A DNA stretch of 64,000 nucleotides from Williamsia sp. CHRR-6 (GTDB lineage: Bacteria > Actinomycetota > Actinomycetes > Mycobacteriales > Mycobacteriaceae): assembly GCF_018474015.1 (NCBI RefSeq), contig NZ_JAHCSG010000004.1:310001-374000 (forward strand), written 5' to 3'. Made by a program: the position numbers and the translations under genes. Below, one piece after another: positions 5,659 through 62,091 of this stretch. The notes under the pieces are model-generated. The model searched no databases. It was not told the origin of the DNA and worked only from the letters and a program-made list of their open reading frames with translations. How positions within the stretch are numbered: position 1 is the first letter of the stretch; each line of letters starts with the position of its first letter.

Positions 5659-5700
5659 GATGATCGATCCTCTCCTCGGGCGGGCCGCTACGAGGTGGAC

Positions 5701-5838
5701 TCAACCAAACAGGTTCTTGGCGCGCAACACCAGCTCATACACACCCCAGGAGAACGGAACCAGGACCCACGTCCAGGCCACCACCAGCAGCACCACACGG
5801 GATACGGGTGTCGCAGCGGCAGGCGTCGGCTCGGTCAT
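5701..5838 (-). CDS. MFS transporter small partner protein (45 aa)
   Basis: A 45-residue protein, MTEPTPAAATPVSR then one hydrophobic helix (VVLLVVAWTWVLVPFSWGVY) and a short basic tail. Its ATG overlaps the TGA of the MFS gene by 4 nt (ATGA), so it is translationally coupled. Small one-helix proteins of this kind are found immediately after OFA-type (oxalate/formate antiporter-like) MFS genes and have been annotated as small subunits; the role is not established. I infer an auxiliary membrane subunit. Confidence 0.7.
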   Translation of the reverse strand: MTEPTPAAATPVSRVVLLVVAWTWVLVPFSWGVYELVLRAKNLFG

Positions 5839-7190: not shown

Positions 7191-7282
7191 GTAGGCCAGT
7201 GCAACACGAACCCGATTGGGGCCGTGGCGGATTGACGCAGCCGGAGGCGGTCAAAGCGGACTAACCGCTCGAATCGGTCGGG

Positions 7283-7825: not shown

Positions 7826-7842
7826 AACATAGCCAAGGTGAG

Positions 7843-8376: not shown

Positions 8377-8493
8377 CGCTGACTCCTTGGTGTGTTCGGT
8401 TTCGGTCTGTTCCTGCCCGGGGCAGTGCGCCCGGCATGGCAATGAGATTGCTCGGATTCGGACGCGGTCGGATCGGCCCAGCGGTGGAGACCC

Positions 8494-8536
8494 GGGTGGA
8501 GCTTGGCTCTCCACCCGTGGGTGGAGGGCCCCACCC
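8494..8536. promoter_or_regulatory. Cluster of GGGTGG/CCACCC dyads in divergent promoter region
   Basis: GGGTGGAG (8494-8501) and CTCCACCC (8509-8516) form an inverted repeat with a 7-bp spacer. CCACCC-GT-GGGTGG follows at 8511-8524 and another GGTGG...CCACC pair runs to about 8536. The cluster lies between the membrane-protein gene (start 8376) and the sensor kinase gene (start about 8556). Binding by the linked response regulator is an inference. Confidence 0.5.
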
Positions 8537-8555
8537 GGCCGGCGATGGCAGGCTG

Positions 8556-9662
8556 ATGCCCATGTCCACTCGCCGCCGTGTGATGCAGGAAGCGTTCGCG
8601 ATCGTCATCGTGATGACCGTCGTGTGGGCGTGGCTGTCGGTGACCCCGATCGGGACGCGCGGCCGAGGACTGGTCGGACTGATCCTGCTGGTGGCGGGCA
8701 CCGCTGCGATGGCCATGCGGGCGCTGCCGGCCCGACGCTGGGAGTCACCGTGGGGCGTTGGCGCGGCGGTCAGTGCTGCGATCGCATGCGGGGCACTGTT
8801 CGGGTTCGCGCCCACCACCGCGGGTGCAGCGTTCGCGCCGATCTTCGCAGGGATGGCGGGCTACCGATTGCCCACGCGCCCAGCAGTTCTGGTGGCCGTC
8901 ATCGTGTCGGTGTCGGCGTTCGTGGCGGCCCTGGTCGAGCACCGGGCCACGCCCGGGTTGGCGCTGCTGGCGGGGCTGGCGGTGTTCGTGGGCATGGGCC
9001 GACGCGATCGGATGGAGGCGTTGCGGCTGACGGAGGAGAAGTTGGTCCAGACGCAACGGGCGGTGGAATCGGAAGGGCGGGCACAGATGTTGGCCGAACG
9101 CACGCGGGTGGCACGCGAAATCCATGACGTGTTGGCGCATTCGTTGTCGGGGGTGAACATGCAACTGAACCTGGCCGATGCGTTGCTGGAGAACGGTCGC
9201 ACCGAGGACGGTCGCCAGGCGGTTCGCGATGCGCAACAGGCAGTTTCGGACGGGCTGGCCGAGGTGCGGCGCGCGGTGTATGCGCTTCGCGATGAGCCGG
9301 TGGACCTGGTAGCGGGCATCGAGGGACTGGTGGCCGGCGATCACGAAAGCGTGACGGTGGACGGTGCGCCGGGCTGGCTCAGCGATGTGCAGACCACGCA
9401 GCTGGTTCGTATCGTGGGTGAGGCCCTGACCAATGCGCGTCGACACGCTCCCGGCGCGCCGGTGCACGTGGCTGTCGCGGGCACCGACGACCAGGTGAGC
9501 GTGGTGGTGTTCAACCAATCCGATTCGACAGCAACACCTTTTACCAAGGGAGCGGGTGTGGGCCTGGTGGGGATGGGTGAGCGCGCCGCGCAGATCGGGG
9601 CGCGTCTGCAGGTGGGGCCGGCTGACGGCGGCTGGACGGTGCGCGTGGAGTTGAGCCGATGA
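8556..9662 (+). CDS. NarL-type two-component sensor histidine kinase
   Basis: A 368-residue kinase. Hydrophobic helices fill residues 11-145, with no obvious periplasmic sensor domain. A linker helix leads to a HisKA_3 domain with phospho-acceptor His190 (VAREIHDVLAHSLSG), and the HATPase domain shows GEALTNARRHA and GVGLVGMGERAAQIGARL. This is the LiaS/DesK-like membrane-sensing type. The ATG at 8556 (or 8562) follows a weak GGCAGG; earlier in-frame ATGs would place the start inside the divergent promoter. The response regulator start overlaps its stop by 4 nt. Confidence 0.9.
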   Translation: MPMSTRRRVMQEAFAIVIVMTVVWAWLSVTPIGTRGRGLVGLILLVAGTAAMAMRALPARRWESPWGVGAAVSAAIACGALFGFAPTTAGAAFAPIFAGMAGYRLPTRPAVLVAVIVSVSAFVAALVEHRATPGLALLAGLAVFVGMGRRDRMEALRLTEEKLVQTQRAVESEGRAQMLAERTRVAREIHDVLAHSLSGVNMQLNLADALLENGRTEDGRQAVRDAQQAVSDGLAEVRRAVYALRDEPVDLVAGIEGLVAGDHESVTVDGAPGWLSDVQTTQLVRIVGEALTNARRHAPGAPVHVAVAGTDDQVSVVVFNQSDSTATPFTKGAGVGLVGMGERAAQIGARLQVGPADGGWTVRVELSR

Positions 9663-10339
9663 GCGAGCCGATCCGCGTGGTGATCGCCGATGATCAGACC
9701 ACCATCCGTGAGGCGTTGGCCATGATGTTGGACCTCAACGAGGACCTATCGGTGGTGGGGACAGCCGAAAACGGTTCGCTGCTGGTGGATCTCGTGGAGA
9801 CGGCGACGCCGGATGTGGTGTTGACCGATCTGCGGATGCCGGTGCTCGACGGGGCCGATGCCACCCGCGCGATCTTGGAGCGTCACCCGGAGTTGCCGGT
9901 CGTGGTGTTGACTACCTTCGATGACGACGAGTCGATTTTCCGGGCGTTGGATGCCGGGGCGTGTGGCTATCTGACCAAGGACGCCAACCGTCACGAGCTG
10001 GCGGCAGCCATCCGCGCCGCGGCAGCGGGACAATCGGTACTGGACCGCTCAGTGCAGCAACGTCTGATGCGTCGGGCCGCCGGGTCTACGCCCGCGCCTG
10101 CACCTGGTGCTGCTGGCGCCTCTGGCTCTCCCGAACTCGCCCAGCTGACCACGCGCGAACGAGAAGTACTGGTGCACATGGCAGCTGGATCAAGTAACCG
10201 CGAGAATGCCGCCGCATTGTTCATCAGCGAATCCACCGTCAAAACCCACATCAACAACGTCTTCGCCAAACTCGCCCTGCGCGACCGCGCCCAAGCCATC
10301 GCGTTTGCGCATCGACATGGTCTGGCCCCGGACCAATAG
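9659..10339 (+). CDS. NarL/LuxR-family response regulator
   Basis: A 226-residue protein with a receiver domain (acidic pair D11-D12, phospho-acceptor D57 in LTDLRMP, Lys near 107 in GYLTKDA) and a C-terminal LuxR helix-turn-helix (LTTREREVLVHMAAG ... SESTVKTHINNVFAKL). It is translationally coupled to the upstream kinase. A small deviation is GSSNRENAAALF, where the family usually has GLSNREIAxxLF. Likely targets are its own operon and the divergent membrane gene. A 26-bp palindrome starts 5 bp after the stop codon. Confidence 0.92.
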   Translation: MSEPIRVVIADDQTTIREALAMMLDLNEDLSVVGTAENGSLLVDLVETATPDVVLTDLRMPVLDGADATRAILERHPELPVVVLTTFDDDESIFRALDAGACGYLTKDANRHELAAAIRAAAAGQSVLDRSVQQRLMRRAAGSTPAPAPGAAGASGSPELAQLTTREREVLVHMAAGSSNRENAAALFISESTVKTHINNVFAKLALRDRAQAIAFAHRHGLAPDQ

Positions 10340-10344
10340 GGACT

Positions 10345-10370
10345 TGACCGCGTTCCGCGGAACGCGGTCA
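10345..10370. repeat. Palindromic repeat element, copy 1 (26-bp perfect dyad)
   Basis: The core CGCGTTCCGCGGAACGCG is flanked by TGAC on the left and GTCA on the right, giving 26 bp of perfect twofold symmetry. The inner 22 bp (10347-10368) are identical in all four copies in this window. In RNA it would fold into a GC-rich hairpin and may terminate the two-component operon, although no U-tract follows. It marks the left edge of the accessory island. Confidence 0.9.
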
Positions 10371-10420
10371 TCGCTACTGGACGCGGAGCCCAGGATTGTG
10401 TCCGTGGTTAGGCTGCTGAA

Positions 10421-11539
10421 GTGAGGCAATCTGAGCGCGTTGAGGCGGTTGGCCACTACTTCCTGGTCGCCACGGATGACGCGGACACCTTGAGTCCTCG
10501 CGCGACAGGCAGTCTCATCGAGGTGGGGGATGACTATCTGCGCCTACTCACTGGTGTTGCGTTTGGCCCAGTTTCGCTCACCGTCGACGTCGTCGACACC
10601 ATGCCGGAGTACAGCGAGGCGGCCGACGAGCCATGGGAGGTTGTTGAACAGACGTCGATGAAGGTTACGCAAGACATGCGTGTCCTCACCGGCGAGCTTG
10701 AGCCGGCTGACGGGTTCCAGGGCTTGGGCCTCAAGCCTGGCCGCTACACGGTGAGGGGATACGCACGAGGACGCGACGAACAATGGGACGGCATCGCTGA
10801 CGAAGCACATGAGAGATACCTCCTCCTGATCGCGCGGTCAAAGAGCCGAAGTCGGTTGCGTCAGTTGAAAAAGACCGACGCGGTATGGAGTGCTCCGGTC
10901 GCATTCCATCAAGTAAGGCAGTGGTACGAACCCGACCCGGCCAGCGATGCCAGCGCTTGGATCTACATCGGGCGAGATGCGTACATCGAACAGCAGAAGG
11001 AAACCGCGCGGATGTGGGGCGGCCGCCCGCCGGGTGACCTGGCCCGATCGATCGGGGCGCGATCGTTGGCCTACTATGACCGCGGCCTGGCCGACGCGAT
11101 CGCGCGCGCCAAAGCCGCAAAGCGAAACTCTGTCGGCCAGTGGGCGCTCCATGAGGCACTTGACGCTTCGGGGCTGCCTGAGCGGGAGTGGGCCGCCCCA
11201 TACATCGTGGCGCTCAAGGACGAGTCCCAAGCCGTGGAGATCGCATCATTTGAACAGTTCGAGGTGGTCCATAACCTCGTTGCTCGCGATCCTCACCTCA
11301 ACCACCTCAGCGTTGATCTACCCGTACCCGGCGGGCCGTCGAATGGCTACAGCGCTACCAGCGTTATCCGAGCCATCAACCAACAAGCTACGACCCGCAA
11401 TTTCGGAAACGAAGTATTTGCCAACATCGAGATGGCGATGACCTTTGCACCTGGCGGTCACCTCGACGTCATTCAGCGGCTACGGCAGCAGTTCTTTCCC
11501 CGCCTCAAGCGCGCTGACCTCTTTGAACGCTGGGTGTGA
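10421..11539 (+). CDS. Uncharacterised protein of palindrome-bounded cassette 1
   Basis: A 372-residue soluble protein that I do not recognise. It starts at GTG 10421 without a strong ribosome binding site. There is no signal peptide, TM helix or nucleotide-binding motif. The N-terminal third (about residues 1-125) is acidic and strand-rich (GPVSLTVDVVDTMPEYSE). The C-terminal half has basic and aromatic helices (RQQFFPRLKRADLFERWV). It stands alone between palindrome copies 1 and 2, next to a defence cluster. A defence or effector role is only guilt by association. Confidence 0.65.
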   Translation: MRQSERVEAVGHYFLVATDDADTLSPRATGSLIEVGDDYLRLLTGVAFGPVSLTVDVVDTMPEYSEAADEPWEVVEQTSMKVTQDMRVLTGELEPADGFQGLGLKPGRYTVRGYARGRDEQWDGIADEAHERYLLLIARSKSRSRLRQLKKTDAVWSAPVAFHQVRQWYEPDPASDASAWIYIGRDAYIEQQKETARMWGGRPPGDLARSIGARSLAYYDRGLADAIARAKAAKRNSVGQWALHEALDASGLPEREWAAPYIVALKDESQAVEIASFEQFEVVHNLVARDPHLNHLSVDLPVPGGPSNGYSATSVIRAINQQATTRNFGNEVFANIEMAMTFAPGGHLDVIQRLRQQFFPRLKRADLFERWV

Positions 11540-11673
11540 GCACCTGATTTTGCCGATCTCTGCGGAGACGTGACACCGACCGTCGGCACCGCTCACATAA
11601 CTGCGCTCAGCCCACCGGTCCTGACCTGGCCAGATGGTTGTTTCACGTTAAGGGTGTTCCCTCTGGGGGTCCC

Positions 11674-11733
11674 AGCCCGCTTCAGTGTCCAGCAACCCGA
11701 ACGGACCTCCAACCGCGTTCCGCGGAACGCGGT
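11674..11733. repeat. Direct repeat with palindrome copy 2, left flank of the RM island
   Basis: The 22-bp palindrome occupies 11712-11733. The preceding 38 bp also match the copy at 19821-19880 at a constant offset of 8,147 bp. Identity is high from CCAGCAA onward (43 of 45 positions, 11689-11733) and weaker before that (about 52 of 60 overall). Copies 1 and 4 lack this extended homology, so the pair forms true direct repeats bracketing the TIR/type I RM segment. Confidence 0.85.
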
Positions 11734-11792
11734 GAGTGGTGCCAATCCACGCGCGCTTACCTGGATGTCGCCTTAACCGGGTGTGCGCTCAG

Positions 11793-12500
11793 CTAACCTG
11801 CTGCCGCTGTTGCCACAGCGATCTTCTGCGCGACCTGCTTCATCGAAAGCGAACCGGTCGTCAAGCCGGAACGAGCTGCAAGAAGCGGGCTGATATCGCG
11901 GAGGGCATCGAAGGTGGTGTCGTGCGCTACGGGGATCACTCGGTCGGTGGAGAGAAGCGCTGAGAGCTCCTTGCCCGCCAGCCCCGACGATGATTCCAGA
12001 CCGTGCAAGAGTGCGGGCGTCACGAGGACAATGCCGGCGCGGGAATTGGCCAACCCTCTGTCGACCTCCTGGATGAGCGACGTACCAAGCGAGACGTCGT
12101 ACTCGCTGAACCACACGGTGGCTCCGTACGATTCAAGGAAGTCACACAGCTCCTTGGCTGGCCCCTCGCGGTCATTCCATGCGTGGCAGAGGAAGAGATC
12201 ACGGCGTTCGGGGTGTGCACGCGCGACGGTCTCCGCCCTTCTCACTACGGGTTCCAAAGTGCGCCACTCTGTTGCACTGAACGAGAGTGACTCTCCGCCG
12301 CGCAGACGACGCGAGTTCCCACCTGAACTCGACCGGCGACCCGCTGCGGCGACGGCGGGGTAGCCGCCGTTCCGAGCGTGCGTTGGTGGTGGTGGCGCGA
12401 AGTACGAGTCGGTTCGGCGCGTACCGCCCCGGCAAGCCGGGCACCTCGCAGCCGCGGTGGATGAACGATGGCCTTCAACTGGAGCAGTGCAACTGGACAT
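11793..12500 (-). CDS. TIR-domain protein
   Basis: About 235 residues. A TIR_2-type domain occupies about residues 99-230: DLFLCHAWNDREG (strand A and following loop), GATVWFSEYDVSLG, AGIVLVTPALL, and Glu178 in AGKELSALL at the position of the catalytic glutamate of TIR NADases. A CPAC pair at about 20-23 hints at a small zinc element, but the N-terminal 70 residues are low-complexity and the start is uncertain; ATG 12500 is the first in-frame Met before the island's hsdM promoter. It is transcribed away from hsdM. Bacterial TIR proteins commonly degrade NAD+ during abortive infection, so a defence role is likely. Confidence 0.8.
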   Translation of the reverse strand: MSSCTAPVEGHRSSTAAARCPACRGGTRRTDSYFAPPPPTHARNGGYPAVAAAGRRSSSGGNSRRLRGGESLSFSATEWRTLEPVVRRAETVARAHPERRDLFLCHAWNDREGPAKELCDFLESYGATVWFSEYDVSLGTSLIQEVDRGLANSRAGIVLVTPALLHGLESSSGLAGKELSALLSTDRVIPVAHDTTFDALRDISPLLAARSGLTTGSLSMKQVAQKIAVATAAAG

Positions 12501-12638
12501 GTTGGAAGGATGGGAACGAGTCCCGACATACACGCGCAGCGGGGAATCGCGGCCTCGCTTCGCCTTCGTCTCAGCGGGGAATAGACCATGATGATCCTGA
12601 CGCATGAACGGCACTGCTAGGAAGCAAGGGGACCAGGC

Positions 12639-14375
12639 TTGAGCAAGTTGGGAAACTTCGTGTGGGGTATCGCCGACCAGTTGCGAGGTGTGTACAAGCC
12701 CCACCAGTACGGAAACGTGATCTTGCCGTTCACTATTCTGCGGCGGCTCGACTGCATCCTCGAACCCACTCGCGATGAGGTCGCCACCCTGACGGAGAAG
12801 TTCGCGGGCGGCGCGCTGGACGTCCAGGTGAAACGCAAGACTGGTCTTGCGTTCTACAACACCAGCCCGTTCACGTTCACCACTCTGCTGGAGGATCCCG
12901 AGGGCCTTCGCGCGAACCTTGTCGACTATCTGACCGGATTCTCGTCGAACATCGATGTGTTCGAGCGGTTCAAGTTCGACAACGAGCTGGCCACCCTGGA
13001 TGAGAAGAACCGGCTGTATCTGGTGACGTCGCAGTTCGCCGGGGTCGACCTGCATCCCGACACCGTGAGCAACGCCGAGATGGGCGACCTGTTCGAGCAT
13101 CTGATCTTCAAGTTCGCTGAGGCGTCCAACGAGGAGGCCGGTGAGCACTACACCCCGCGTGATGCGATCCGGTTGATGGTCGACCTGCTGTTCGCCGAAG
13201 ACAGCATCGGGCTGATGGAGCCGGGCACGGTTCGCACCATCTACGACCCCACCGCCGGTACCGGCGGCATGCTGTCGGTGGCTGAAGAGCGACTCATCGA
13301 GCGCAATCCTGAAGCGCGCCTGCGGCTTTACGGCCAGGAGATCAACGACCAGTCGTACGCCATCTGCAAGTCCGACATGATCGCCAAAGGCCAAGACGTC
13401 GGCAACATCAAACTCGGCGACACCCTCGCCGACGACCTCTTCTTCGACCGCACCTTCGACTTCTGCATGTCCAACCCGCCCTATGGCGTGGACTGGAAGG
13501 CGTCGCAGGATTCGGTGAAACGAGAAGCGCTGGCGCAGAATTCGCGTTTCTCTCACGGTCTGCCATCGATTGGTGACGGTCAGATGCTGTTCCTGTCGCA
13601 CATCGCCAGCAAGATGCGACCGGCCCATGAGGGTGGTGGCCGCGCAGGGATCGTGCTGAACGGTTCACCGCTGTTCAACGGCGCCGCCGAGTCCGGGCCC
13701 TCGCAGATTCGGCAGTGGCTACTCGAGTCCGATCTGGTCGAGGCGATCATCGCGTTGCCCACCAACATGTTCTTCAACACCGGTATCGCCACCTACATCT
13801 GGCTGTTGGACAACACGAAACAGCCGGAACGCGTAGGCAAGATCCAGTTGATCGACGCCACCACGTTCTGGACCAAGATGCGCAAGAGCCTCGGCGCGAA
13901 AAGCCGTGAGATCGACGCCGACGCCCGCGACCGCATCCTCGCGCTGTACGACCAGTTCGATGAGGCCGACCCCGACTTCTCGAAAGTGTTCACCGCCAAC
14001 GACTTCGCCTACTGGACAGTCACGGTGGAGCGCCCGCTGCTGACCGACACCGGCAAGGTGTCCGCCGATCGCGCTGGCAACCCGAAGCCGGACCCAAAGA
14101 AGCGCGACACCGAAAACATCCCGTTCACCTACGGCGGCAACACCGACGGCGCGATGGCCAAGGCATCGACCATCAAGGCCTACTTCCAGGCCGAGGTTCT
14201 CCCCCACGTTCCCGACGCGTGGATCGACGAGAAGAAGACCAAGGTCGGTTACGAAATCCCCTTCGCCCGCCACTTCTACAAATACGTCCCACCCAGACCC
14301 CTCGCCGAGATCGACGCAGACTTGGAGAAGCAGGCCGCCAAGATCATGGACCTACTACGCGAGGTTGAGGGGTGA
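12639..14375 (+). CDS. hsdM: Type I restriction-modification methyltransferase subunit
   Basis: A 578-residue N6-adenine methyltransferase. The N-terminal HsdM helical domain (KLGNFVWGIADQLRG...) is followed by the SAM motif DPTAGTGG (residues 203-210), YGQEIN and the catalytic NPPY (279-282). Translation starts at TTG 12639, about 8 nt after AAGGGG, because no ATG/GTG precedes the conserved N-terminus. With HsdS it forms the modification complex, and with HsdR the restriction enzyme. It is the first gene of a tight operon; hsdS overlaps its stop by 4 nt. All catalytic motifs are intact. Confidence 0.96.
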   Translation: MSKLGNFVWGIADQLRGVYKPHQYGNVILPFTILRRLDCILEPTRDEVATLTEKFAGGALDVQVKRKTGLAFYNTSPFTFTTLLEDPEGLRANLVDYLTGFSSNIDVFERFKFDNELATLDEKNRLYLVTSQFAGVDLHPDTVSNAEMGDLFEHLIFKFAEASNEEAGEHYTPRDAIRLMVDLLFAEDSIGLMEPGTVRTIYDPTAGTGGMLSVAEERLIERNPEARLRLYGQEINDQSYAICKSDMIAKGQDVGNIKLGDTLADDLFFDRTFDFCMSNPPYGVDWKASQDSVKREALAQNSRFSHGLPSIGDGQMLFLSHIASKMRPAHEGGGRAGIVLNGSPLFNGAAESGPSQIRQWLLESDLVEAIIALPTNMFFNTGIATYIWLLDNTKQPERVGKIQLIDATTFWTKMRKSLGAKSREIDADARDRILALYDQFDEADPDFSKVFTANDFAYWTVTVERPLLTDTGKVSADRAGNPKPDPKKRDTENIPFTYGGNTDGAMAKASTIKAYFQAEVLPHVPDAWIDEKKTKVGYEIPFARHFYKYVPPRPLAEIDADLEKQAAKIMDLLREVEG

Positions 14376-15604
14376 GTGCCAGTGCAACCGCATGGCGGAT
14401 CCAGCGGCTTAGATATTTGCTATCAGTCGATCCTCCAGTCGCCTCCTATATACGCGATGATCCCGATCGCATGGTGTCGTTCCTCCCGATGGAGGCGGTC
14501 GGCGAAAACGGCGGTCTAGACCTATCGCGCGAGATTCGTGCCGCTGACGCGCTGGCCGGTTACACATTTGTGGCGGATGGCGATGTCCTGCTGGCGAAAG
14601 TGACGCCGTGTTTCGAGAACGGGAAGGGGTCCGTGGTCACGGGCCTAGTGGGTGGTGCAGGCTTCGCAACGACGGAGGTGTACACGCTTCGACCAGGACC
14701 TGACGTGCATGCCAGGTTCCTGGACTATTTGCTTCAATCGCGAGTTTTCCGCGCCTACGGCACAGCTCGCCTTACAGGGGCAGGCGGACTCAAACGACTC
14801 TCTGCAACCGACCTTCGCAACTTCGAAGCTCGAATACCATCGCATGGCGAGCAGGTAGCCATCGCCGACTTCCTCGACCGGGAGACGGCGCGGATCGACA
14901 CGCTCATCGAGGAGCAGCAGCGCCTCATCGATCTGCTACGCGAGCGGAGAGTCGACGCAGTTGCAGGGGCTCTCCAAGGGCTGCAGGGGCGAACACGACT
15001 GAAGTATCGTGCCATCATCCAAACCGGCGTCACATTAAACGGCGAGGGCGATCCCGCCTGGCCAGAGTGGCCCTATCTGCGAGTGGCGAATGTCCAGGTC
15101 GGGCGCGTCGATCTCACCGAAGTCAAAACGATCAGGCTGAAACCAGAGGACGCTGCAGCGAGTTCACTCCTGCCCGGTGACGTTTTGATGACCGAAGGCG
15201 GGGACATCGACAAACTCGGACGGGGTGCACTGTGGTCGGGTCACATTCCGAATGCGCTACACCAGAATCACGTTTTCGCGGTCCGCCCGGACGAGGGACT
15301 GCTCCCCGAGTTTCTCGTGTATGTGCTCGACGGCCCAGAAGCCCGCGGCTACTTCATGACCACAGCCAAGAAGACGACGAACCTTGCCTCCACGAACAAA
15401 TGGACTCTCGGCAACTTACCTCTCGCCTGCCCTTCTGTTGGAGAGCAACGTCGTGTCGTTAACTACCTTGATGAGCAGATCGAGAAGATTGACAGGCTGG
15501 TCGCCGAAGCCGAGAGGTTTATCGAACTGTCGCGCGAGCGCCGAGCTGCTCTGATCACCGCGGCAGTGACTGGGCAGATCGATGTGCGAGGCACGGCAGC
15601 CTGA
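14372..15604 (+). CDS. hsdS: Type I restriction-modification specificity subunit
   Basis: A 410-residue HsdS with the usual two-repeat plan: target-recognition domain 1 (about 10-165), a central conserved helix (IADFLDRETARIDTLIEEQQ and LIDLLRERR), target-recognition domain 2 (about 205-365) and a second conserved helix (VVNYLDEQIEKIDRLVAEAE ... ELSRERRAAL). The helices space the two half-sites of a bipartite recognition sequence, which cannot be predicted here. The GTG start is embedded in the hsdM stop (GTGA). No inverted hsdS fragments or recombinase are present, so phase-variable switching is not suggested. Confidence 0.95.
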   Translation: MSASATAWRIQRLRYLLSVDPPVASYIRDDPDRMVSFLPMEAVGENGGLDLSREIRAADALAGYTFVADGDVLLAKVTPCFENGKGSVVTGLVGGAGFATTEVYTLRPGPDVHARFLDYLLQSRVFRAYGTARLTGAGGLKRLSATDLRNFEARIPSHGEQVAIADFLDRETARIDTLIEEQQRLIDLLRERRVDAVAGALQGLQGRTRLKYRAIIQTGVTLNGEGDPAWPEWPYLRVANVQVGRVDLTEVKTIRLKPEDAAASSLLPGDVLMTEGGDIDKLGRGALWSGHIPNALHQNHVFAVRPDEGLLPEFLVYVLDGPEARGYFMTTAKKTTNLASTNKWTLGNLPLACPSVGEQRRVVNYLDEQIEKIDRLVAEAERFIELSRERRAALITAAVTGQIDVRGTAA

Positions 15605-16320
15605 TGCTGTTGGCGTTCGTCGATGAGTCCGATCAAGGCGATTTCCATTGCTTCGGTGCAGTTTTGGCCGATGAGAACGCCACGAAGCAACTCACCGAGC
15701 GGCTCAATTCCCTAATGCGCCGGGCCTGTTTCGACTATGGCATTCCACAGAACACAGAGTTCCATGCGCATCCCATGTTTCACGGTAAGGACGCTTGGCA
15801 GACGGTCGGTCAGCGCGCTCGCGCGAATTTGCACGAGAAGGTCGTCGACGCGATCGTCGAGTCGGATGTGTCACTGCTCCTTCGGCACGTCAGTCGGAAG
15901 CGGCTGGCCGACCGGCAGGATCGGAAGGGCTACCCGGAGCGATTCCCCCCAGAGCAAGTCTGTTTTCAACACGTCCTGCAACGTATCGACCGCGTCGCAC
16001 AGGCGCGGTCCACCTACGCGCTTGTCATTGCCGACGAGCGAGGCGATCGGGAACGACACCGCGAGCGATTCGCGACTTATCAGGTCGCCGGAACCCCGGG
16101 AATCTACCGCCACACAACACTGCCGCGGCTACTGGACACTGTTCACTTCGCTCCGAGTCATCACTCACGCATGCTGCAGGCTGCGGACATGTTGGCGTTC
16201 ACTTACCGAAGGCACCAGACCGTGGTGGAACCTGACCACCGCGCACAACGAATCATGGATCGGTTGTGGTCAAAGCTGCAGGACTCCGGAAAGCTGTATG
16301 AACCGGGAGGCTGGCCATGA
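15604..16320 (+). CDS. DUF3800 protein (RNase H-like fold)
   Basis: A 238-residue protein beginning MLLAFVDESD, the DUF3800 signature in which FVDES supplies acidic residues of an RNase H-like fold. VIADERGD and QAADMLAF match later family blocks. DUF3800 proteins are often found in defence islands and RM loci, and a nuclease function is suspected but not proven. The ATG overlaps the hsdS stop by 1 nt, so it is an integral member of the RM operon, inserted between hsdS and hsdR. Confidence 0.85.
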   Translation: MLLAFVDESDQGDFHCFGAVLADENATKQLTERLNSLMRRACFDYGIPQNTEFHAHPMFHGKDAWQTVGQRARANLHEKVVDAIVESDVSLLLRHVSRKRLADRQDRKGYPERFPPEQVCFQHVLQRIDRVAQARSTYALVIADERGDRERHRERFATYQVAGTPGIYRHTTLPRLLDTVHFAPSHHSRMLQAADMLAFTYRRHQTVVEPDHRAQRIMDRLWSKLQDSGKLYEPGGWP

Positions 16321-16328
16321 TGCACAAC

Positions 16329-16349
16329 AGCCCCGCACAAGGCGGGGCT
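16329..16349 (+). terminator. Intergenic hairpin between DUF3800 and hsdR
   Basis: AGCCCCGC (16329-16336) pairs with GCGGGGCT (16342-16349) across a 5-base loop. There is no U-tract. It lies in the only sizeable gap (117 bp) of the RM operon, so it could attenuate hsdR relative to hsdM/hsdS, delaying restriction until modification is established, or protect a processed transcript. The function is inferred. Confidence 0.5.
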
Positions 16350-16437
16350 GAAGGCCATGCGGGCGGCATCTCTGCGGCCTGCGTTGAAAGGCTAGCACGA
16401 CGCCCTGACGGGCCACACCCTGCAGAACGGACGGCGC

Positions 16438-19400
16438 ATGGCTCAGCACAATGAGGTGGAGTTCGAGAAGGAGATCGCCGAATACCTCGGTGCACATGGG
16501 TGGGAGTACTCACCCAACGGGCAGGGCTACGACAAGGAACGCGCACTGTTCCGCGAGGACGTGCTTGCCTGGCTTGACGAGACCCAGCCCGAGCAGCTCG
16601 CGAAGGTGATCAAGTTCGACTCGAAAGATGTTGTCAAACAGCAGGATCAGCTACTCGACCGGATAGTGAAAGTGCTCGACACGCCGCTGGAGAACAGCGG
16701 CGGGACCTTGAATCTGTTGCGTAAGGGGTTCTCTCACCTCTCGGCGAAGTTCGCGATGTGTGTGTTCCGCCCCGAGGCAACTCTGAACGAGAAGCGGAAC
16801 GCCGACTACGCCGCCGTTCGACTGCGGGTGATGCGTCAGGTCTACTTCTCCACTGCCGATAACCGGTCGGTTGATCTGGTCTTCTTCGTCAACGGGCTCC
16901 CTGTCGCGACCGCGGAACTCAAAACCGACTTCACCCAGACCGTGTCCGACGCGATGACCCAATACCGCACCTCACGGCTCCCGAAGGATCCGCAGACGGG
17001 AAAAGTACAGCCGCTGTTCGTCTCCGGTGCCCGCGCTCTGGTGCACTTCGCGGTGTCGAACGACGAAGTGTGGATGACCACCAAGCTGGCCGGCGAGAAG
17101 ACCCACTTCCTGCCGTTCAACCGGGGAGCCGAAGACGGCGGCGCCGGCAACCCAGTCAACACAAACGGCTCACGTTCTGCGTACCTCTGGGAACGCGTAC
17201 TGCAGCGCGACGCGTGGCTGAACATTCTCGGCCGCCTGATGTACATCAAGCACGAGTCGAACACCGACCCCATCAGCGGCAAGACCACCAAAACGTCGTC
17301 GCTACGGTTCCCGCGGTTCCACCAGTGGGAAGCAGTCACCGAACTCACCGCCGCCGTGACATCCGAGGGTGTCGGCCACCGGTACCTCATCCAGCACCCG
17401 GCCGGCTCGGGTAAGACCGACTCCATCGCCTGGACCGCGCACCGGATGGCGCGGCTGCAGGTGGAGAACACCAAGGTCTTCGACTCGGTCATCGTCGTCA
17501 CCGACCGCAACGTCCTCGATGCACAACTACAGGATGCGATCAAACAGATCGACAACGATCAGGGCATCGTCGTCGGCATCGACCGCGACGCAGCCAGCAA
17601 GGCCGGCGGGTCAAAATCGGGGATGCTGGCGCAGGCACTCACCGACGGCAAGCTGATCATCGTGGTCACCATCCAGACGTTTCCCTTCGCGATGGAGGAG
17701 ATCCAAAAAAACAAGGGGCTCAAAGGCAAGGCATTCGCAGTGATCGCCGACGAAGCGCATTCATCGCAGTCGGGCCAGGTCGCCGGCAAACTCAAAGCCG
17801 TCCTCACCGCTGATGAGTTGCAGGAAATCGAGGACGGCGGCGAGGTGTCCGTCGAGTCGGTGCTCGCGGCCGAAGCCAGCGAGCGCGCCGCCTCGGCGAA
17901 CATCTCCTATTTCGCGTTCACCGCGACACCGAAGGGCAAGACACTCGAGCTGTTCGGCCGCAGACCAACCCCCGACGAGGCACCCGCGCCGTTCCACGTC
18001 TACACGATGAAACAGGCCATCGCGGAGGGCTACATCCTCGACGTCCTGACCGGATACCACTCCTTCAAGCTCGCCTTTCAGATCGGGCAGAACGCCTCCG
18101 TCACCGGCGACGAAGTGGATCAGTCCGAGGCCACGAAGGCCGTGATGAAGTGGGTGAAGCTGAACCCACAGACCATCACACAGAAGGCCGCGATCATCGT
18201 CGAGCATTTCCACGCGAACGTGAGCGGCTTGCTCGACGGTCACGCGAAAGCGATGGTCGTCGCCGACTCACGCAAGGCCGCAGTACGTTTCAAGCTTGCG
18301 ATCGACGGTTACATCGCATCGAAGGGCTATGGGTACGGCACGCTGGCGGCGTTCTCCGGCGCGGTGCAAGATCCCGAGTCCGGCCCCGACGACTTCACCG
18401 AAGCCACCATGAACCCGGGCGTGCGTGACCTGCGCAGAGCATTCACCGGCGATCAGTACAAGGTCATGATCGTGGCCAACAAGTTCCAGACCGGTTTCGA
18501 CCAGCCGCTGCTGTGCGCGATGTATGTCGATCGTCGGCTGTCGGGAGTCACTGCGGTACAGACGCTCTCGCGTCTCAACCGCACTTACCGAACCCCGACG
18601 GGCATACCGAAGACCGCGGCGATGACCCAGGTGGTCGACTTCGTCAACGACCCCGCCACCATCCAGGAATCGTTCGAGCCGTACTTCACCGACGCATTCC
18701 TCGAAACCGAGACCGACCCGAACCTGGTGCATGACCTCTCGGCAAAGCTGGACACGGCCGCCATCTACACCCAAGCCGAGATCGACGAGTGCGCCAAGCG
18801 CTATCTGGAGGGCAAGGGGAACAACGCGCTGTACGGCGCCGTCGACGCAGGTAAGAAGCGGTTCGCCGAGCGGTATCAGGCGGCGCTCATCCACAACGGC
18901 GGCGAGGGGGACAAAGCCGCGCTGGCCGAGCTCGACATGTTCCGCAAGGACGTCGGGTCGTTTGTGCGCCTGTATGACTTCATGTCGCAGATCATCGACT
19001 ACGGCGACCCCGAGCTGGAGAAGAAGCAGATCTATCTGCGCGCACTCGAAGCAGTGATTCGGCCCGACAACTACACCGCACCGATCGACCTGTCGGGGGT
19101 GGTGTTGCAGCACGTGAAACAGATCGACCGCGGCCAGGTCGACATCGGATTCGGGACCAGAGTGGGACTCAAAGGGACCACCGCGGCCGGCTCCGGTGAG
19201 AAGCGCGACCCGACGATGGTCGCGTTCCAGGTGGTCCTCGATCGGCTCAACGACCTGTTCGGTTCCGAGGACTTCACCGAGAGTCAGAAGGTGTCGTTCA
19301 TCGAGTCACTCCTGCGGACACTGCTCGACAACGAGTCGCTGATCCAGCAGGCCAAGGTCAACACGCCCAAGCAGTTCACCGAGTCACCCGACTTCGACGA

Positions 19401-19551
19401 CGCTGTCACCGACGCCGTCGCCGACAACCAAGGCGCCCACCAGAAGATGAGTGACTACTTCTTCACCAACAGCCCCGGCCGCGCTCACCTCATCTCCGAC
19501 ATCGCCAAGTGGTTCTATCAGGTCGTCACGAGGGAGAGTGAAAATGCGTAA
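16438..19551 (+). CDS. hsdR: Type I restriction endonuclease / translocase subunit
   Basis: A 1037-residue HsdR. The N-terminal nuclease domain has the PD-(D/E)XK residues Asp146 (VDLVFFVNG) and Glu160-x-Lys162 (AELKTD). The SF2 motor has Walker A PAGSGKT (321-327), the DEAH box (438-441), FAFTATP and the arginine-finger region LSRLNRTYRTP. It translocates DNA and cleaves unmodified targets with HsdM/HsdS. The length is typical and no frame disruption is seen. ATG 16438 is preceded only by a weak ribosome binding site, in line with low expression of the toxic subunit. Confidence 0.96.
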   Translation: MAQHNEVEFEKEIAEYLGAHGWEYSPNGQGYDKERALFREDVLAWLDETQPEQLAKVIKFDSKDVVKQQDQLLDRIVKVLDTPLENSGGTLNLLRKGFSHLSAKFAMCVFRPEATLNEKRNADYAAVRLRVMRQVYFSTADNRSVDLVFFVNGLPVATAELKTDFTQTVSDAMTQYRTSRLPKDPQTGKVQPLFVSGARALVHFAVSNDEVWMTTKLAGEKTHFLPFNRGAEDGGAGNPVNTNGSRSAYLWERVLQRDAWLNILGRLMYIKHESNTDPISGKTTKTSSLRFPRFHQWEAVTELTAAVTSEGVGHRYLIQHPAGSGKTDSIAWTAHRMARLQVENTKVFDSVIVVTDRNVLDAQLQDAIKQIDNDQGIVVGIDRDAASKAGGSKSGMLAQALTDGKLIIVVTIQTFPFAMEEIQKNKGLKGKAFAVIADEAHSSQSGQVAGKLKAVLTADELQEIEDGGEVSVESVLAAEASERAASANISYFAFTATPKGKTLELFGRRPTPDEAPAPFHVYTMKQAIAEGYILDVLTGYHSFKLAFQIGQNASVTGDEVDQSEATKAVMKWVKLNPQTITQKAAIIVEHFHANVSGLLDGHAKAMVVADSRKAAVRFKLAIDGYIASKGYGYGTLAAFSGAVQDPESGPDDFTEATMNPGVRDLRRAFTGDQYKVMIVANKFQTGFDQPLLCAMYVDRRLSGVTAVQTLSRLNRTYRTPTGIPKTAAMTQVVDFVNDPATIQESFEPYFTDAFLETETDPNLVHDLSAKLDTAAIYTQAEIDECAKRYLEGKGNNALYGAVDAGKKRFAERYQAALIHNGGEGDKAALAELDMFRKDVGSFVRLYDFMSQIIDYGDPELEKKQIYLRALEAVIRPDNYTAPIDLSGVVLQHVKQIDRGQVDIGFGTRVGLKGTTAAGSGEKRDPTMVAFQVVLDRLNDLFGSEDFTESQKVSFIESLLRTLLDNESLIQQAKVNTPKQFTESPDFDDAVTDAVADNQGAHQKMSDYFFTNSPGRAHLISDIAKWFYQVVTRESENA

Positions 19552-19792
19552 CCGCCAGTACTGGGACGATCTAATGAACGAGGGACGTGGACTTACGCGA
19601 GAAGCGGAGGGCGAAGCCCGTGGCCTACGCGTGCCCCGACATCCCGACGACCGTGCGCGAGTTCACGAGGTTGCGCAGCGGTGGCGCGATTCGATCGCGG
19701 ACAAGCGTCATCGGGAGCGCGATCGCCCTGAGCATCAACTCCAGGACGTCACGACGCGTATCGCAGCCTGCACCCCCATGCCGACAGGGTGA
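19544..19792 (+). CDS. Small protein terminating the type I RM operon (82 aa)
   Basis: An 82-residue, strongly charged protein (MRNRQYWDDLMNEGRGLTRE ... ADKRHRERDRPEHQLQD) with helix propensity and no hydrophobic segment. I do not recognise it. Its ATG lies inside the end of hsdR (8-nt overlap) and is preceded by a good ribosome binding site AGGGAGAG, which argues for real translation coupled to hsdR. It could be an anti-restriction or regulatory accessory. The next 80 bp lead to the right-hand direct repeat. Confidence 0.5.
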   Translation: MRNRQYWDDLMNEGRGLTREAEGEARGLRVPRHPDDRARVHEVAQRWRDSIADKRHRERDRPEHQLQDVTTRIAACTPMPTG

Positions 19793-19820
19793 TCGGGCCG
19801 CGCGGCGAACCCCGGCGCTG

Positions 19821-19881
19821 AGCCCGAGACTGCGCCCAGCAAACCGAACGGACCGCCAACCGCGTTCCGCGGAACGCGGTT
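19821..19881. repeat. Direct repeat with palindrome copy 3, right flank of the RM island
   Basis: Positions 19821-19880 match 11674-11733 (about 52/60 overall, 43/45 in the inner part). The palindrome core is at 19859-19880 and extends to 24 bp of perfect symmetry (19858-19881). It lies 69 bp upstream of the HNH gene, so it serves as both the right edge of the RM cassette and the left edge of the HNH cassette. Confidence 0.88.
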
Positions 19882-19949
19882 CTGCCATTGTCATAGGGTC
19901 CCGATAGGCTGCGTTCAGTTAGAAAATCGCAGTTCACGGGGGTATTTCA

Positions 19950-21344
19950 GTGTCGGTTACAGCCATTTCTTCAACGTCGTCGGATCTGTTTGATCAGGCA
20001 GCGCCCGAAGGGTTGAGTGATCGGGAGTTGACTGATCGGGTGGTTGGGCATGCCACTCAGATCGCGGCGTTGACGGCCCGGTTCCTCGACCTGCTGCGCG
20101 TGTTCGATGAGCGGGGGGTGTGGAACGGGGCTGGTATCCGCTCGTGCGCGCACTGGCTGTCCTGGAAAACCGGGTTGTCGTTGCGGACTGCGCAGGATCA
20201 TCTGCGGATCGCCCACGCCCTGACCGAGCTACCCCTGTTGCATGCCGCGTTCGCGCAGGGTCGCCTGTCGTATTCGAAGATCCGGGCGGTCACCCGGGTC
20301 GCCACCCCCGACCGGGAAACCGAACTGGTGAACCTTGCGATCTCGGCGACCGCCGCCCAGGTGGAGCGGGTGGTCCGTTCCATCGCCCACATCGACCGCG
20401 CCCAGGATGAGTATGCGGCCGGGCGGGTCGAATCATCGGCCCGGTGGCGGTGGTGCAATGACGGGACCCTGGCGGTGACGATGCGACTGTCCCCGGTCGA
20501 TGGGGCCCGGTTCCTGGCCGGGGTGGTGCGCAGCGAATACGAACGGACCCGCACCACCGGCGACCCCGATGTCCCCATCCCCACCACCACCGGCGACGAC
20601 GGCGAGGAGGTGGTGGTGGCGGCGAAACCGGATCTGTGGCGCCATGTTCCCGCCAACATCGCTGATGCGGTGATCGTGATGGCCGATGCCGCCCGCACCG
20701 CGATCGCCATGCCGGAGTTCGCGCCCGGCGCCGAAATCGTCATCCACACCGACACCGACAGCCCCACCGATTCCAGCGTGGATGCGCATCTCGATGATGG
20801 TCCCGCTCTCACGGCCGCCGAGGTAGATGAAGCATCCTGCGGTGGTTCCACCCGCACCATCGATCACGCAACGCGGACCCGGGCGGGTCGGCGTGGGGTG
20901 GCGTTGACGTTCGGGCGTAAACGCCGTCTCCCGACTCATGCTTTGCTGCGGGTGGTGTTCGAACGTGACCGTGGTTGTCGGCATCCGGTGTGTGGCCGTA
21001 CCCGACATCTACACGCCCATCATGTGCGGTTCTGGCGTGACGGTGGCACCACCGACCCCGACAACCTGATCATGCTGTGTTCCACCCACCACCAGGCACT
21101 GCACCACGGGGTGTTCACCATCGCCGCCCACGGTAACCAACAATTCAGTTTCCACCGCCCCGACGGCACCCTCATCGACACCGCACCCACACTCGCGGTG
21201 ACCGGAGACTGGTTGCCCAACACCACACTTCGTCCCACCGCGATCACACCCATCGAACCCGGACCCCTCGACCTGGCCTACACCATCGAAGTCCTCTACG
21301 GCATCTGGGACCACACACCATCACGCCACCCGATCGCCGCCTGA
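19950..21344 (+). CDS. DUF222/HNH endonuclease-domain protein (13E12 repeat family)
   Basis: A 464-residue protein with an N-terminal DUF222 helical region and a C-terminal HNH domain: CRHPVCGRTRHLHAHH, then DNLIMLCSTHHQALH, giving two metal-site cysteine pairs and the HNH histidines. Members are multi-copy in mycolic-acid actinobacteria (REP13E12 in M. tuberculosis), and their role is unknown; mobility or DNA cleavage is suspected. The GTG start follows GGGGGT by 8 nt. The gene is bounded on both sides by identical palindromes, and the stop codon lies inside the right-hand one. Confidence 0.9.
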   Translation: MSVTAISSTSSDLFDQAAPEGLSDRELTDRVVGHATQIAALTARFLDLLRVFDERGVWNGAGIRSCAHWLSWKTGLSLRTAQDHLRIAHALTELPLLHAAFAQGRLSYSKIRAVTRVATPDRETELVNLAISATAAQVERVVRSIAHIDRAQDEYAAGRVESSARWRWCNDGTLAVTMRLSPVDGARFLAGVVRSEYERTRTTGDPDVPIPTTTGDDGEEVVVAAKPDLWRHVPANIADAVIVMADAARTAIAMPEFAPGAEIVIHTDTDSPTDSSVDAHLDDGPALTAAEVDEASCGGSTRTIDHATRTRAGRRGVALTFGRKRRLPTHALLRVVFERDRGCRHPVCGRTRHLHAHHVRFWRDGGTTDPDNLIMLCSTHHQALHHGVFTIAAHGNQQFSFHRPDGTLIDTAPTLAVTGDWLPNTTLRPTAITPIEPGPLDLAYTIEVLYGIWDHTPSRHPIAA

Positions 21345-21368
21345 CCGCGTTCCGCGGAACGCGGTCAG
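21341..21368. repeat. Palindromic repeat element, copy 4 (28-bp perfect dyad)
   Basis: The same 22-bp palindrome (21344-21365) is extended to 28 bp of perfect symmetry. It overlaps the TGA of the HNH gene and ends 2 bp before the stop codon of the convergent lipoprotein gene, so it would act as a bidirectional hairpin between them. It is the right edge of the accessory island. Confidence 0.9.
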
Positions 21369-21369
21369 T

Positions 21370-22326
21370 TCAGCGCCGGCAGGTGTCGTAGTCCGCGCGG
21401 ATTCGCTGTTCCAGATCCGCAGCGGCCTTCTCAAAGTCGGTGTCTGCGTGACGGCCATATGTTCGCGGATAGTCGCAGCTTCCTACCGACACCACGCCAT
21501 CAGCGTCTCGCTCCCAGGTCGCCACCGCTGGGCTGACACTCCAGCTCAGGCGCACCGGATGAGCCCGGTCAGCACCCAGCGACGCGATGACGCCCCGCAC
21601 ATTCGCGTCAGCGACTTCCTGGGTCCCCGCATCGATGGCCAGCTCTGTGATCAAGCCGCCGTCGACGGCAACGGAGGTGACAAGGATTGTCAACGCGCGG
21701 ATCCGACCCTCCAGTTGCCGTAGTCGCGCCGCCGCCACCGGGGTGGTAACCGTCCAGCGCGGCTGGGCGGCGCGTGCTTTCGGGCTCGCAACAATGCTCC
21801 CGCGAGCCGGACCGATTGCCGCTGCCATCGCACCCGCCACGGCACCCGCAGCATCGACCGGATCTGTGGCACCCATGATCTCCACGTCGATACGACCCGA
21901 CCGCAGAAACACCGTCACGTGATCGGCCGTCACCCGACGCTGCGCGCTGCGGGCCGTCGCCAGAACTGTCGCGGCGTTCTCGGGTGTGAGCTGCTTCTCC
22001 GATTCGACGCGAACGCCTGCACCCAGATCGATACTCACGGGGGTGGCGTAGTCATCGAAGTCGTGACCCATCAAGGTGTTCATCCGATGAACCATCGCCA
22101 CCACCTGGGCGTCGTCGGCGCCGGACATGCCGACATCGATACTCACGGTGTACCCGCTGTCAAAACCGTTGACGTAGGACACATCTGCGCTGCCCACACC
22201 AGGAACGCCCCGCAACGCTGACTCCAACTCGGCGGCTTCGGCACTCCGATCCGGCGCGCTACAACCAGCGGTGACGAGCGTGATCGCCGACACGATCAAC
22301 GCAACCGCGAACACTCGACTTCTCAT
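21370..22326 (-). CDS. Predicted lipoprotein
   Basis: A 318-residue protein with a lipoprotein signal peptide (MRSRVFAVALIVSAITLV, lipobox TAGC, Cys22). The mature part has two strand-helix repeats around segments such as SYVNGFDSGYTVSIDVGMSG and RIDVEIMG, similar in feel to other actinobacterial envelope lipoproteins of unknown function. It is anchored at the outer face of the cytoplasmic membrane. The C-terminus has two cysteines that could pair (VGSCDYP and YDTCRR). The gene converges on the HNH gene. No specific function can be assigned. Confidence 0.75.
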   Translation of the reverse strand: MRSRVFAVALIVSAITLVTAGCSAPDRSAEAAELESALRGVPGVGSADVSYVNGFDSGYTVSIDVGMSGADDAQVVAMVHRMNTLMGHDFDDYATPVSIDLGAGVRVESEKQLTPENAATVLATARSAQRRVTADHVTVFLRSGRIDVEIMGATDPVDAAGAVAGAMAAAIGPARGSIVASPKARAAQPRWTVTTPVAAARLRQLEGRIRALTILVTSVAVDGGLITELAIDAGTQEVADANVRGVIASLGADRAHPVRLSWSVSPAVATWERDADGVVSVGSCDYPRTYGRHADTDFEKAAADLEQRIRADYDTCRR

Positions 22327-22398
22327 GCACTCAGCGTCACAGCACTGAGCTGTCGGGCGACAGCGTAGAACTACGTGGCGTCCGGCGGCGGCATGCGG

Positions 22399-22788
22399 CT
22401 ATCCATACGAACGCGCGACGAAACGCACACCCTCCGGTGCCTCCAGGCTGAACCCCGAACCCCGCCCGCGGGCCACGTCGAGAACCACCTCGCCCGACTC
22501 CCAGCCGTCAGCGAACTCGTCGGCCACCAACACCGTCACCGGCGGCAGGGGGTCGGGCAGCACGATCTCACCGACCGCCACCTCACGGCTACCGGCGTGC
22601 AGGGTGCCCACCGCGTGACACATCGGGTCCGACCCGGCGCACGCCCCTCCGGCGTGATGCACCACCAGCGCACCGTGCAACTCGGTGAGCGTGGTCAGCA
22701 GGTCGCGCGCCCCGCTGCTGACCAGCACGGTGGGCGCACCCGTCGTGACGACCGGGGCGTGACGGGCGAAGTTCTCCAAAACGGACAT
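22399..22788 (-). CDS. DUF779 protein, paralogue B
   Basis: A 129-residue DUF779 protein: LTELHGALVVHHAGGACAGS, DPMCHAVG, VLDVARGRGSGFSLEAPEGV. The conserved Cys residues could bind metal. DUF779 genes regularly accompany NAD-dependent aldehyde dehydrogenases in actinobacteria (for example next to aldA of M. tuberculosis), and an accessory role is inferred. It is a diverged duplicate of the neighbouring gene: here GGACAGSDPMC replaces GGCCDGSAPMC, and the C-terminal tail after RFVARSYG is missing. ATG 22788 was taken as start because the conserved block begins just after it. Confidence 0.82.
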   Translation of the reverse strand: MSVLENFARHAPVVTTGAPTVLVSSGARDLLTTLTELHGALVVHHAGGACAGSDPMCHAVGTLHAGSREVAVGEIVLPDPLPPVTVLVADEFADGWESGEVVLDVARGRGSGFSLEAPEGVRFVARSYG

Positions 22789-22831
22789 CGGCCAATGATG
22801 AGCACAGCGGCGTCCATCCGCACATCGAGAT

Positions 22832-23248
22832 TCAGCCGGCCACCTCGGCCCCACGCCGCGGCGGGCATGCATCCAACCAAGTGTTCTCGGCCTCGTTGAA
22901 CACCCGCGACCGGGACAGGAACCGCACCCCCTCCGGCGCCTCCAGGGAGAACCCGGCCCCACGGCCAGGCACCACGTCGAGGATGAGCTGAGTGTGTTTC
23001 CACAGCTCGTACTGGTCGCCTCCAATCCAAACCCGAACGGCCGGAATGGGTTCGGGCAAGTCGATTTCGCCCAGCAGCACGTCTCGCTGGCCGACCCGGT
23101 ACTCGCCCACCGGGTAACACATGGGAGCAGACCCGTCGCAGCATCCACCGGATTGGTGGATCATGAGACCGCCGTGCAGCTCGGACAGTTTCGTCAACAG
23201 CTGCACGGCGGGCTCAGTTGCGACGACTCGTTCTGTAGCAGTCATCAC
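22832..23248 (-). CDS. DUF779 protein, paralogue A
   Basis: A 138-residue DUF779 protein: LSELHGGLMIHQSGGCCDGS, APMCYPVGEYRVG, DVVPGRGAGFSLEAPEGV. It is the canonical copy, with the GGCCDGS motif and the C-terminal extension (FNEAENTWLDACPPRRG). It lies 33 bp downstream of the aldehyde dehydrogenase gene on the same strand, so the three genes probably form one operon. The likely role is as an accessory or stability factor for the dehydrogenase (inference from recurrent gene pairing). Confidence 0.85.
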   Translation of the reverse strand: MMTATERVVATEPAVQLLTKLSELHGGLMIHQSGGCCDGSAPMCYPVGEYRVGQRDVLLGEIDLPEPIPAVRVWIGGDQYELWKHTQLILDVVPGRGAGFSLEAPEGVRFLSRSRVFNEAENTWLDACPPRRGAEVAG

Positions 23249-58000: not shown

Positions 58001-58026
58001 CAGATCACTTTCGTTGTACGGGGCCG

Positions 58027-58042: not shown

Positions 58043-58053
58043 AACTGCCACCA

Positions 58054-60285
<2,232 letters not shown>

Positions 60286-60331
60286 CTAGGTCGCGGAGAC
60301 CTAAGGTCCTACGACGAGGCAGCGGAGCGGC

Positions 60332-62088: not shown

Positions 62089-62091
62089 CGA

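Follow-up and report, generated by a model that had tools for sequence, protein, structure and literature searches.

Four copies of one perfect palindrome stand at gene borders in a 64,000-nucleotide stretch of the Williamsia sp. CHRR-6 genome (contig NZ_JAHCSG010000004.1, positions 310,001 to 374,000; hereafter the window, whose numbering we use), and the question they raise is what reads them. A preliminary description of this DNA took the palindrome as a mark of modular assembly and perhaps as a recombination or cleavage site, possibly acted on by the HNH protein encoded beside it. Here we find that the palindrome is associated with a family of genes encoding a DUF222 region joined to an HNH nuclease domain, and that its sequence goes with the protein by lineage. 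From this association, the lineage match and the predicted fold of the protein we infer that a ParB-like HNH nuclease has the palindrome as its cognate site. It is better read first as the recognition site of this nuclease, with modularity as a possible consequence. Taken as a whole, a reading in which the nuclease is ParB-like and induced by DNA damage, and in which solo copies of its site are possible breakpoints, seems to us reasonably probable.

A rare palindrome at gene borders

The four copies share an identical 18-bp core, CGCGTTCCGCGGAACGCG, at 10349, 11714, 19861 and 21346, and each core is enclosed in a perfect palindrome of 22-28 bp. Palindrome 1 (10345..10370, 26 bp) begins 5 bases past the stop codon of a response-regulator gene; palindrome 2 (11712..11733, 22 bp) lies between a gene that we call X and a group of TIR and restriction-modification (RM) genes; palindrome 3 (19858..19881, 24 bp) lies between hsdR and the HNH gene, upstream of the latter; and palindrome 4 (21341..21368, 28 bp) covers the HNH stop codon. 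The core is found exactly four times in the window, and allowing up to three mismatches adds no further site (0.23 expected; at least four in none of 100 shuffles). The preliminary description was therefore right that four identical palindromes with extended symmetry fall between gene units and nowhere else in the window. Palindromes 1 and 2 are away from the HNH gene, and palindrome 2 carries a flank of the left-end type: the 45-bp stretch that terminates with it has 95.6% identity to the stretch that terminates with palindrome 3.

A genome-wide search for the core gave six exact copies in the 4.0-Mb genome (14 contigs), namely the four in the window and two on contig C2, at 356821 and 358309. 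Both of the extra copies flank a second DUF222-HNH gene, one on either side. One site with two mismatches lies on contig C3.

The palindrome accompanies a family of DUF222-HNH genes

The gene beside palindromes 3 and 4 (19950..21344, plus strand) encodes a 464-residue protein that exceeds the Pfam cut-offs for both DUF222 (29.8 bits against 24.4) and HNH (30.5 bits against 21.4). Its HNH nuclease domain region (20913..21122, plus strand; residues about 322-391) resembles the HNH domains of McrA and IscB, and over 39 homologues H357, H358, H381 and H385 are invariant and N372 nearly so. The protein encoded on contig C2 is 94% identical to it. The likeness extends to the surrounding DNA: a unit of about 1.5 kb, consisting of a 17-bp leader, palindrome, gene and palindrome (19844..21364, plus strand; partner L008:6805-8328 on contig C2 of the same genome, G000), is 93% identical between these unrelated places; the identity begins 17 bp ahead of the left palindrome, runs through the whole of the right one and does not extend beyond. 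In Williamsia the gene and its two sites together behave as a repeated unit. A short, partly tandem repeat found at dozens of places in the genome lies at about 8995-9045 of L008.

We scanned one genome per species across 84,980 species for homologous nucleases and found 46 loci, of which 44 were analysed (L053 and L055 were dropped as partial). Within a zone from 350 bp upstream to 250 bp downstream of the match, 30 of the 44 loci hold at least one perfect palindrome, 16 bp or longer, centred on CCGCGG; they belong to Williamsia, Rhodococcus, Frankiales, Proteobacteria and others. Such palindromes are upstream of the gene at 24 loci, inside it at 5 and downstream at 9, and number 40 in the 80.8 kb near HNH genes compared with 6 in the 388 kb farther off at the same loci. 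All but one of the 40 sites fit the general form CG-Y2-3-CCGCGG-R2-3-CG. In the Y tract, Williamsia has TT or CT, Rhodococcus and several others have TCC, and one Burkholderiaceae genome has TTT; the lineage types besides that of the window include CGCGCTCCGCGGAGCGCG and CGTCCCCGCGGGGACG. Loci were labelled by the longest of their palindromes whose arms measure 6 or more (31 labelled among the 41 rows of the protein tree); the type then requires 7 changes on the 41-protein tree, against at least 13 (mean 17) in 500 label shuffles, an agreement that plain inheritance of the site along with the gene would produce equally well. We hold with fair confidence, from its placement and sequence, that the adjoining DUF222-HNH protein recognises the repeated palindrome as its site.

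Copies of at least 14 bp with no more than one mismatch also occur inside the gene, in 8 of 39 proteins, within poorly conserved linkers or tails, where they are translated in two frames (as APRSA and VSAET, for example). Because the protein is poorly conserved at these places and the frame differs, the conserved thing is the DNA, which points to a function at the DNA level. The nuclease gave one weak match among phage records, two distant loci on viral contigs and one full-length Rhodococcus copy on a plasmid.

We searched eight Williamsia genomes with a pattern in which one base pair is free, GCGNTCCGCGGANCGC, and found 55 sites: 47 perfect with T or C, 1 perfect with G and 7 imperfect. Of these 47 perfect sites, 22 have one of 13 near-full-length HNH genes (one of them with a TAG stop) within 2 kb and 25 have none. 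In the five genomes with a single HNH type, every one of the 28 perfect T- or C-type sites matches that type, including 12 solo sites (one of them counted twice, at two contig ends). Two contigs of G006 (the start of L106 and the end of L109) end in a 55-bp overlap that holds the palindrome; assembly can therefore break there, and copies in draft genomes may be miscounted. Of the 13 HNH copies, 10 lie between two palindromes (counting those perfect over at least 14 bp, and one near-match), 2 have one upstream only, and 1 has one only about 500 bp downstream. At L122 (6071-7435) an HNH copy is interrupted by a TAG stop and still has palindromes on either side.

The association belongs to one part of a large family. 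A Pfam DUF222 match is present in 26 of 31 family genomes sampled, two of which have 28 each. Among 30 such loci (the best of each of the 26 genomes and four more), 6 have at least one perfect palindrome of at least 16 bp, with no sequence in common. The 16-bp pattern CGYYYCCGCGGRRRCG occurs one to five times per genome in 20 of the 31 genomes, mostly in non-palindromic form (control pattern, 0-2), and no HNH match lies within 1.5 kb of either of the two CGTCCCCGCGGGGACG sites, the sole perfect CGYYYCCGCGGRRRCG palindromes checked.

The N-terminal domain is predicted to resemble ParB and Noc

ParB and Noc read palindromes of 14-16 bp. The full-length model of the window protein is of moderate confidence (predicted local distance difference test score, pLDDT, 77.7), and ParB and Noc are already among its first 15 structural matches. 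Modelled alone, with 39 homologues, the N-terminal domain (20007..20444, plus strand) reaches pLDDT 93.7 and a predicted template modelling score of 0.83. In a Foldseek comparison with the PDB its first 15 matches are all ParB, Noc or Spo0J, at probabilities of 0.94-1.00. They include Noc with its site (6y93; root-mean-square deviation 2.1 over 80 columns), and ParB with parS (6s6h) follows at rank 26 (1.9 over 81). Four of the 39 members have a weak Pfam HTH_ParB match, the best at E 0.0011, and the window protein is not one of them. The model predicts that the N-terminal DUF222 part is a ParB/Noc-like DNA-binding domain. A Pfam scan of the full-length window protein at E 0.001 detects no ParB CTPase domain (ParB_N), which the ParB of the same genome does match.

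Damage-type promoter motifs precede many of the genes

Upstream sequences were examined for motifs of DNA-damage regulation, among them the proteobacterial LexA box, CTGT-N8-ACAG. The others were the PafBC/RecA-NDp motif, given as tTGTCRgtg-8 nt-TannnT in PMC5656591, and, with variants tolerated, the actinobacterial LexA box, given as TCGAAC-N4-GTTCGA in PMC4181829. The window gene carries a motif of the PafBC/RecA-NDp type, TTGTCATAG-N8-TAGGCT (19888..19910, plus strand), 9 bp past the core of palindrome 3, and is predicted to be regulated by DNA damage. Over the 44 loci, a PafBC motif occurs at 13, an actinobacterial LexA box at 14 and a proteobacterial one at 4, so that 28 have at least one; 2004 random stretches of the same loci (overlaps allowed) yielded 0, 4 and 1, respectively. 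Ten loci combine an upstream palindrome with a PafBC motif, and at these the palindrome centre is 13-35 bp ahead of the motif. That the 13E12 genes of Mycobacterium tuberculosis belong to the LexA regulon has already been published (PMC5005354, PMC4181829).

Gene gain or loss coincides with the palindrome at two loci

In related species the palindrome coincides with differences in gene content at two loci, which make up the sample for this comparison and are not a survey. At the first, the two-component operon is followed by the HNH unit in G003, G004 and G006, by one palindrome after a further stretch in G002, and in the window by the four palindromes with X and the TIR/type I RM genes in between; no palindrome of this type is present there in G001, G005 or G007. 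At the second, the Tex-ABC locus, a single palindrome without a cassette is present in G006. In G003 two palindromes, the second perfect over 14 bp, stand around a 1.6-kb cassette with an amidase and an unknown gene. In G004 one palindrome, again perfect over 14 bp, is followed by HxlR and L-PSP/RidA-type genes, and G002, where there is no palindrome, has DNA with 76% likeness to the two genes; nor is there a palindrome at this locus in G000, G001, G005 or G007.

The idea of modular assembly is therefore partly supported. Gain or loss abuts the palindrome at both loci, whereas a pair of solo sites elsewhere is conserved with no breakpoint. The tie of the palindrome to the adjoining DUF222-HNH gene is supported; the suggestion of a recombination site is not supported as it stands, no recombinase having been seen among ten proteins scanned. 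Flanking on both sides describes the two HNH copies of this genome, but not the 44 loci at large, where downstream sites are much the rarer. At Tex-ABC a relative, G006, has a single palindrome where G003 has two around a cassette; for the C2 copy no clean empty site was found.

Cassettes at L130, L139 and L110 were considered as swaps and rejected, the alignment being colinear with ordinary deletions away from the palindromes. A cassette at L134 (5700-7097) encodes an N-acetylmuramoyl-L-alanine amidase, about 65% like the near-origin amidase of the CHRR-6 genome at the DNA level, and may be a captured duplicate. A solo palindrome at L140 is adjoined by a dispersed repeat (about 5470-5733), partly inverted, for which G003 and G004 hold dozens of matches.

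The genes between the palindromes

Palindrome 1 follows a two-component operon of histidine kinase and response regulator (8436..10339, plus strand). Gene X (10421..11539, plus strand) has no match in Pfam, PADLOC or NCBIfam. Beyond palindrome 2, the TIR-domain part of a gene (11793..12284, minus strand) is ThsB-like according to PADLOC (E 2.7e-59). It adjoins a type I RM operon, all on the plus strand, of methyltransferase HsdM (12639..14375), specificity subunit HsdS (14372..15604), a DUF3800 protein (15604..16320) and restriction subunit HsdR (16438..19551). The genes at 11793-19551 possibly form a combined defence module.

Farther along, at 55484-63989, the window encodes gyrase A and B, a RecF/SMC-type protein and DNA polymerase III beta, and contains at 58028 the parS-like sequence GTTTCACGTGAAAC. 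It recurs at 5342 and 6109 of L218, on which the ParB of this genome is encoded (7020-8021).

A proposed role and its rivals

In the mechanism that we propose, DNA damage would turn on the DUF222-HNH gene. The N-terminal ParB/Noc-like domain of its product, presumably as a dimer, would bind the parS-like palindrome of about 16 bp, and the HNH domain at the C terminus would make a nick or a cut at the palindrome or close by. Sites upstream, downstream and sometimes inside the gene would serve self-regulation, cutting or both. Solo sites would become breakpoints at which the intervening DNA is lost or replaced by other genes, and the X and TIR/type I RM cassettes of the window would be the largest example seen. 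Our confidence is moderate that the palindrome is cut and used as a breakpoint, and low to moderate that the nuclease unit spreads itself. The whole chain, in which a damage-induced, ParB-guided nuclease would cut end and solo palindromes, spread itself and make slots for the capture, loss and swapping of defence and other genes, we put forward tentatively and think on balance doubtful.

Several observations weigh against the palindrome being the recognition site of a ParB-like nuclease and a breakpoint. For the fold, the Foldseek E-values of the N-terminal domain all exceed 0.05, none being significant; a profile comparison with 30 ParB proteins by hhalign gives E 0.017 and a probability of 2.7%, in a plausible register; and the comparison with the genome's own ParB alone was negative. 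For the site, 14 of the 44 HNH loci, all four from Gordonia included, have no such perfect palindrome, and the motif is present at none of the 30 Pfam-DUF222 loci, one of which has a CCGCGG-centred palindrome of a different shape. The genus pattern is free at one base pair and so is blind to other site types, and G007 holds one perfect Rhodococcus-type site with no HNH match within 1.5 kb. For breakpoints, at Tex-ABC the G004 site and the second of the two in G003 are perfect over 14 bp only, and an additional 14-bp palindrome inside Tex has no breakpoint. The solo pair at L130, L139 and L110 is orthologous in three species, and none of the ordinary deletions between them breaks at a palindrome. 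Nothing could be learnt from searching the solo sites for HNH remnants, as 94 of 206 control segments matched too; the solos at these three loci resemble the HNH 3' end by eye, and we do not rely on this. In many relatives no cassettes are seen, and certain solo palindromes are just conserved. The C2 copy offers no clean empty site, the right-flank gene being conserved and the left flank not syntenic. The Rhodococcus erythropolis group has the gene and one upstream palindrome in conserved synteny.

An explanation that overlaps ours and goes further is a homing-like or site-directed mobile element, whose HNH nuclease would cut solo palindromes and copy the palindrome-flanked unit into them. The two nearly identical units at unrelated loci and the palindromes on both sides of most Williamsia copies speak for it. 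The vertical maintenance seen in the R. erythropolis group and the presence of the same HNH locus in three species do not, and no pair of alleles, one with the HNH unit and one with a single palindrome, was found. We regard it as a serious possibility that falls somewhat short of being probable.

The palindrome could instead be purely an operator, an autoregulatory site with no part in cutting or cassettes, whose solo copies are leftovers. Upstream is indeed the commonest position, the spacing from the PafBC motif would suit a regulatory site, and the R. erythropolis group keeps just such a single upstream copy. An operator, however, has no need of downstream and in-gene copies, of solo sites that match the HNH type or of the coincidence with breakpoints, and we judge this explanation rather unlikely.

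A DNA-repair nuclease in a LexA-controlled pathway, with the palindrome as a regulatory or parking site, would agree with the damage-type promoter motifs and with the mismatch-repair role proposed for 13E12 proteins in PMC4181829. It leaves the flanking, in-gene and solo palindromes and the repeated unit unexplained, and appears improbable.

Integron-like recombination by a dedicated recombinase, with the palindromes as attachment sites, would account for palindromes that separate gene units and for the lower G+C of the two cassettes (0.615 for that of X and 0.618, versus 0.667). We think it very improbable: a scan of ten island and flank proteins gave no match to a recombinase, integrase or Y1 (TnpA-REP) transposase, and 22 of the 47 perfect Williamsia sites lie at an HNH gene.

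Ordinary terminators, which the preliminary description had already doubted, or a repetitive extragenic palindromic (REP) family, readings that some solo copies just past genes (10345, L108 and L134, by eye) might suggest, have next to no likelihood and were rejected, since the genome has only six exact copies, not scattered at most operon ends, other copies lie upstream of and inside the nuclease gene, and a terminator consensus scan of 8000-23000 called 7 sites (8.3 expected), none at the four palindromes.

Recognition of the palindrome by a putatively damage-induced nuclease remains the reading that we prefer. In this bacterial family DUF222 proteins are numerous and still lack an explanation, and the 13E12 repeats belong to the group. 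The predicted fold and a concrete, lineage-specific candidate site open DUF222 function to a simple binding or cutting test. Should the reading be true, a ParB-type DNA reader would serve as the guide of a nuclease and could connect DNA damage with the turnover of accessory genes.

Comparison with known systems

In searches of the open PMC literature, which leave aside subscription papers such as the 1999 description of REP13E12, we came upon no description of the palindromic site or of a ParB-like DUF222 domain. The closest known systems include the 13E12 (DUF222-HNH) genes of M. tuberculosis (REP13E12), which are described as LexA-regulated with mobile-element characteristics in PMC5005354 and, as REP13E12/HNH/DUF222, counted among repetitive elements in PMC10589994. 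The window gene is like them in having both domains above the Pfam cut-off, a damage-type promoter motif and repeated copies. It differs in that its protein belongs to a divergent subfamily tied to the CCGCGG palindrome, the 30 Pfam-DUF222 loci being without the motif. A ParB-related module joined to an HNH domain is also reported in PMC12704722, the main text of which contains the terms DUF222 and 13E12 nowhere; that module is the CTPase fold, whereas the likeness here is to the helix-turn-helix part.

With ParB and Noc and their sites, parS and the Noc-binding site NBS, the system shares a predicted DNA-binding fold and, close to the gene, a palindrome about 16 bp long; unlike them, the window protein is without a CTPase domain and fused to HNH, its gene has a damage-type promoter motif, and the palindrome core is different. 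The pairing of an HNH nuclease with a candidate site next to the gene that encodes it is shared with free-standing HNH homing endonucleases. Here, in contrast, the palindrome persists beside and even inside the gene, so that self-cutting would need avoidance or regulation. In the REP-associated tyrosine transposase (RAYT) system, a nuclease gene lies between clade-specific palindromes that also occur as solo copies in the same genome. The arrangement in Williamsia has the same flanking, clade-specific palindromes and solo copies, built instead around an HNH nuclease rather than a Y1 transposase and with few copies per genome.

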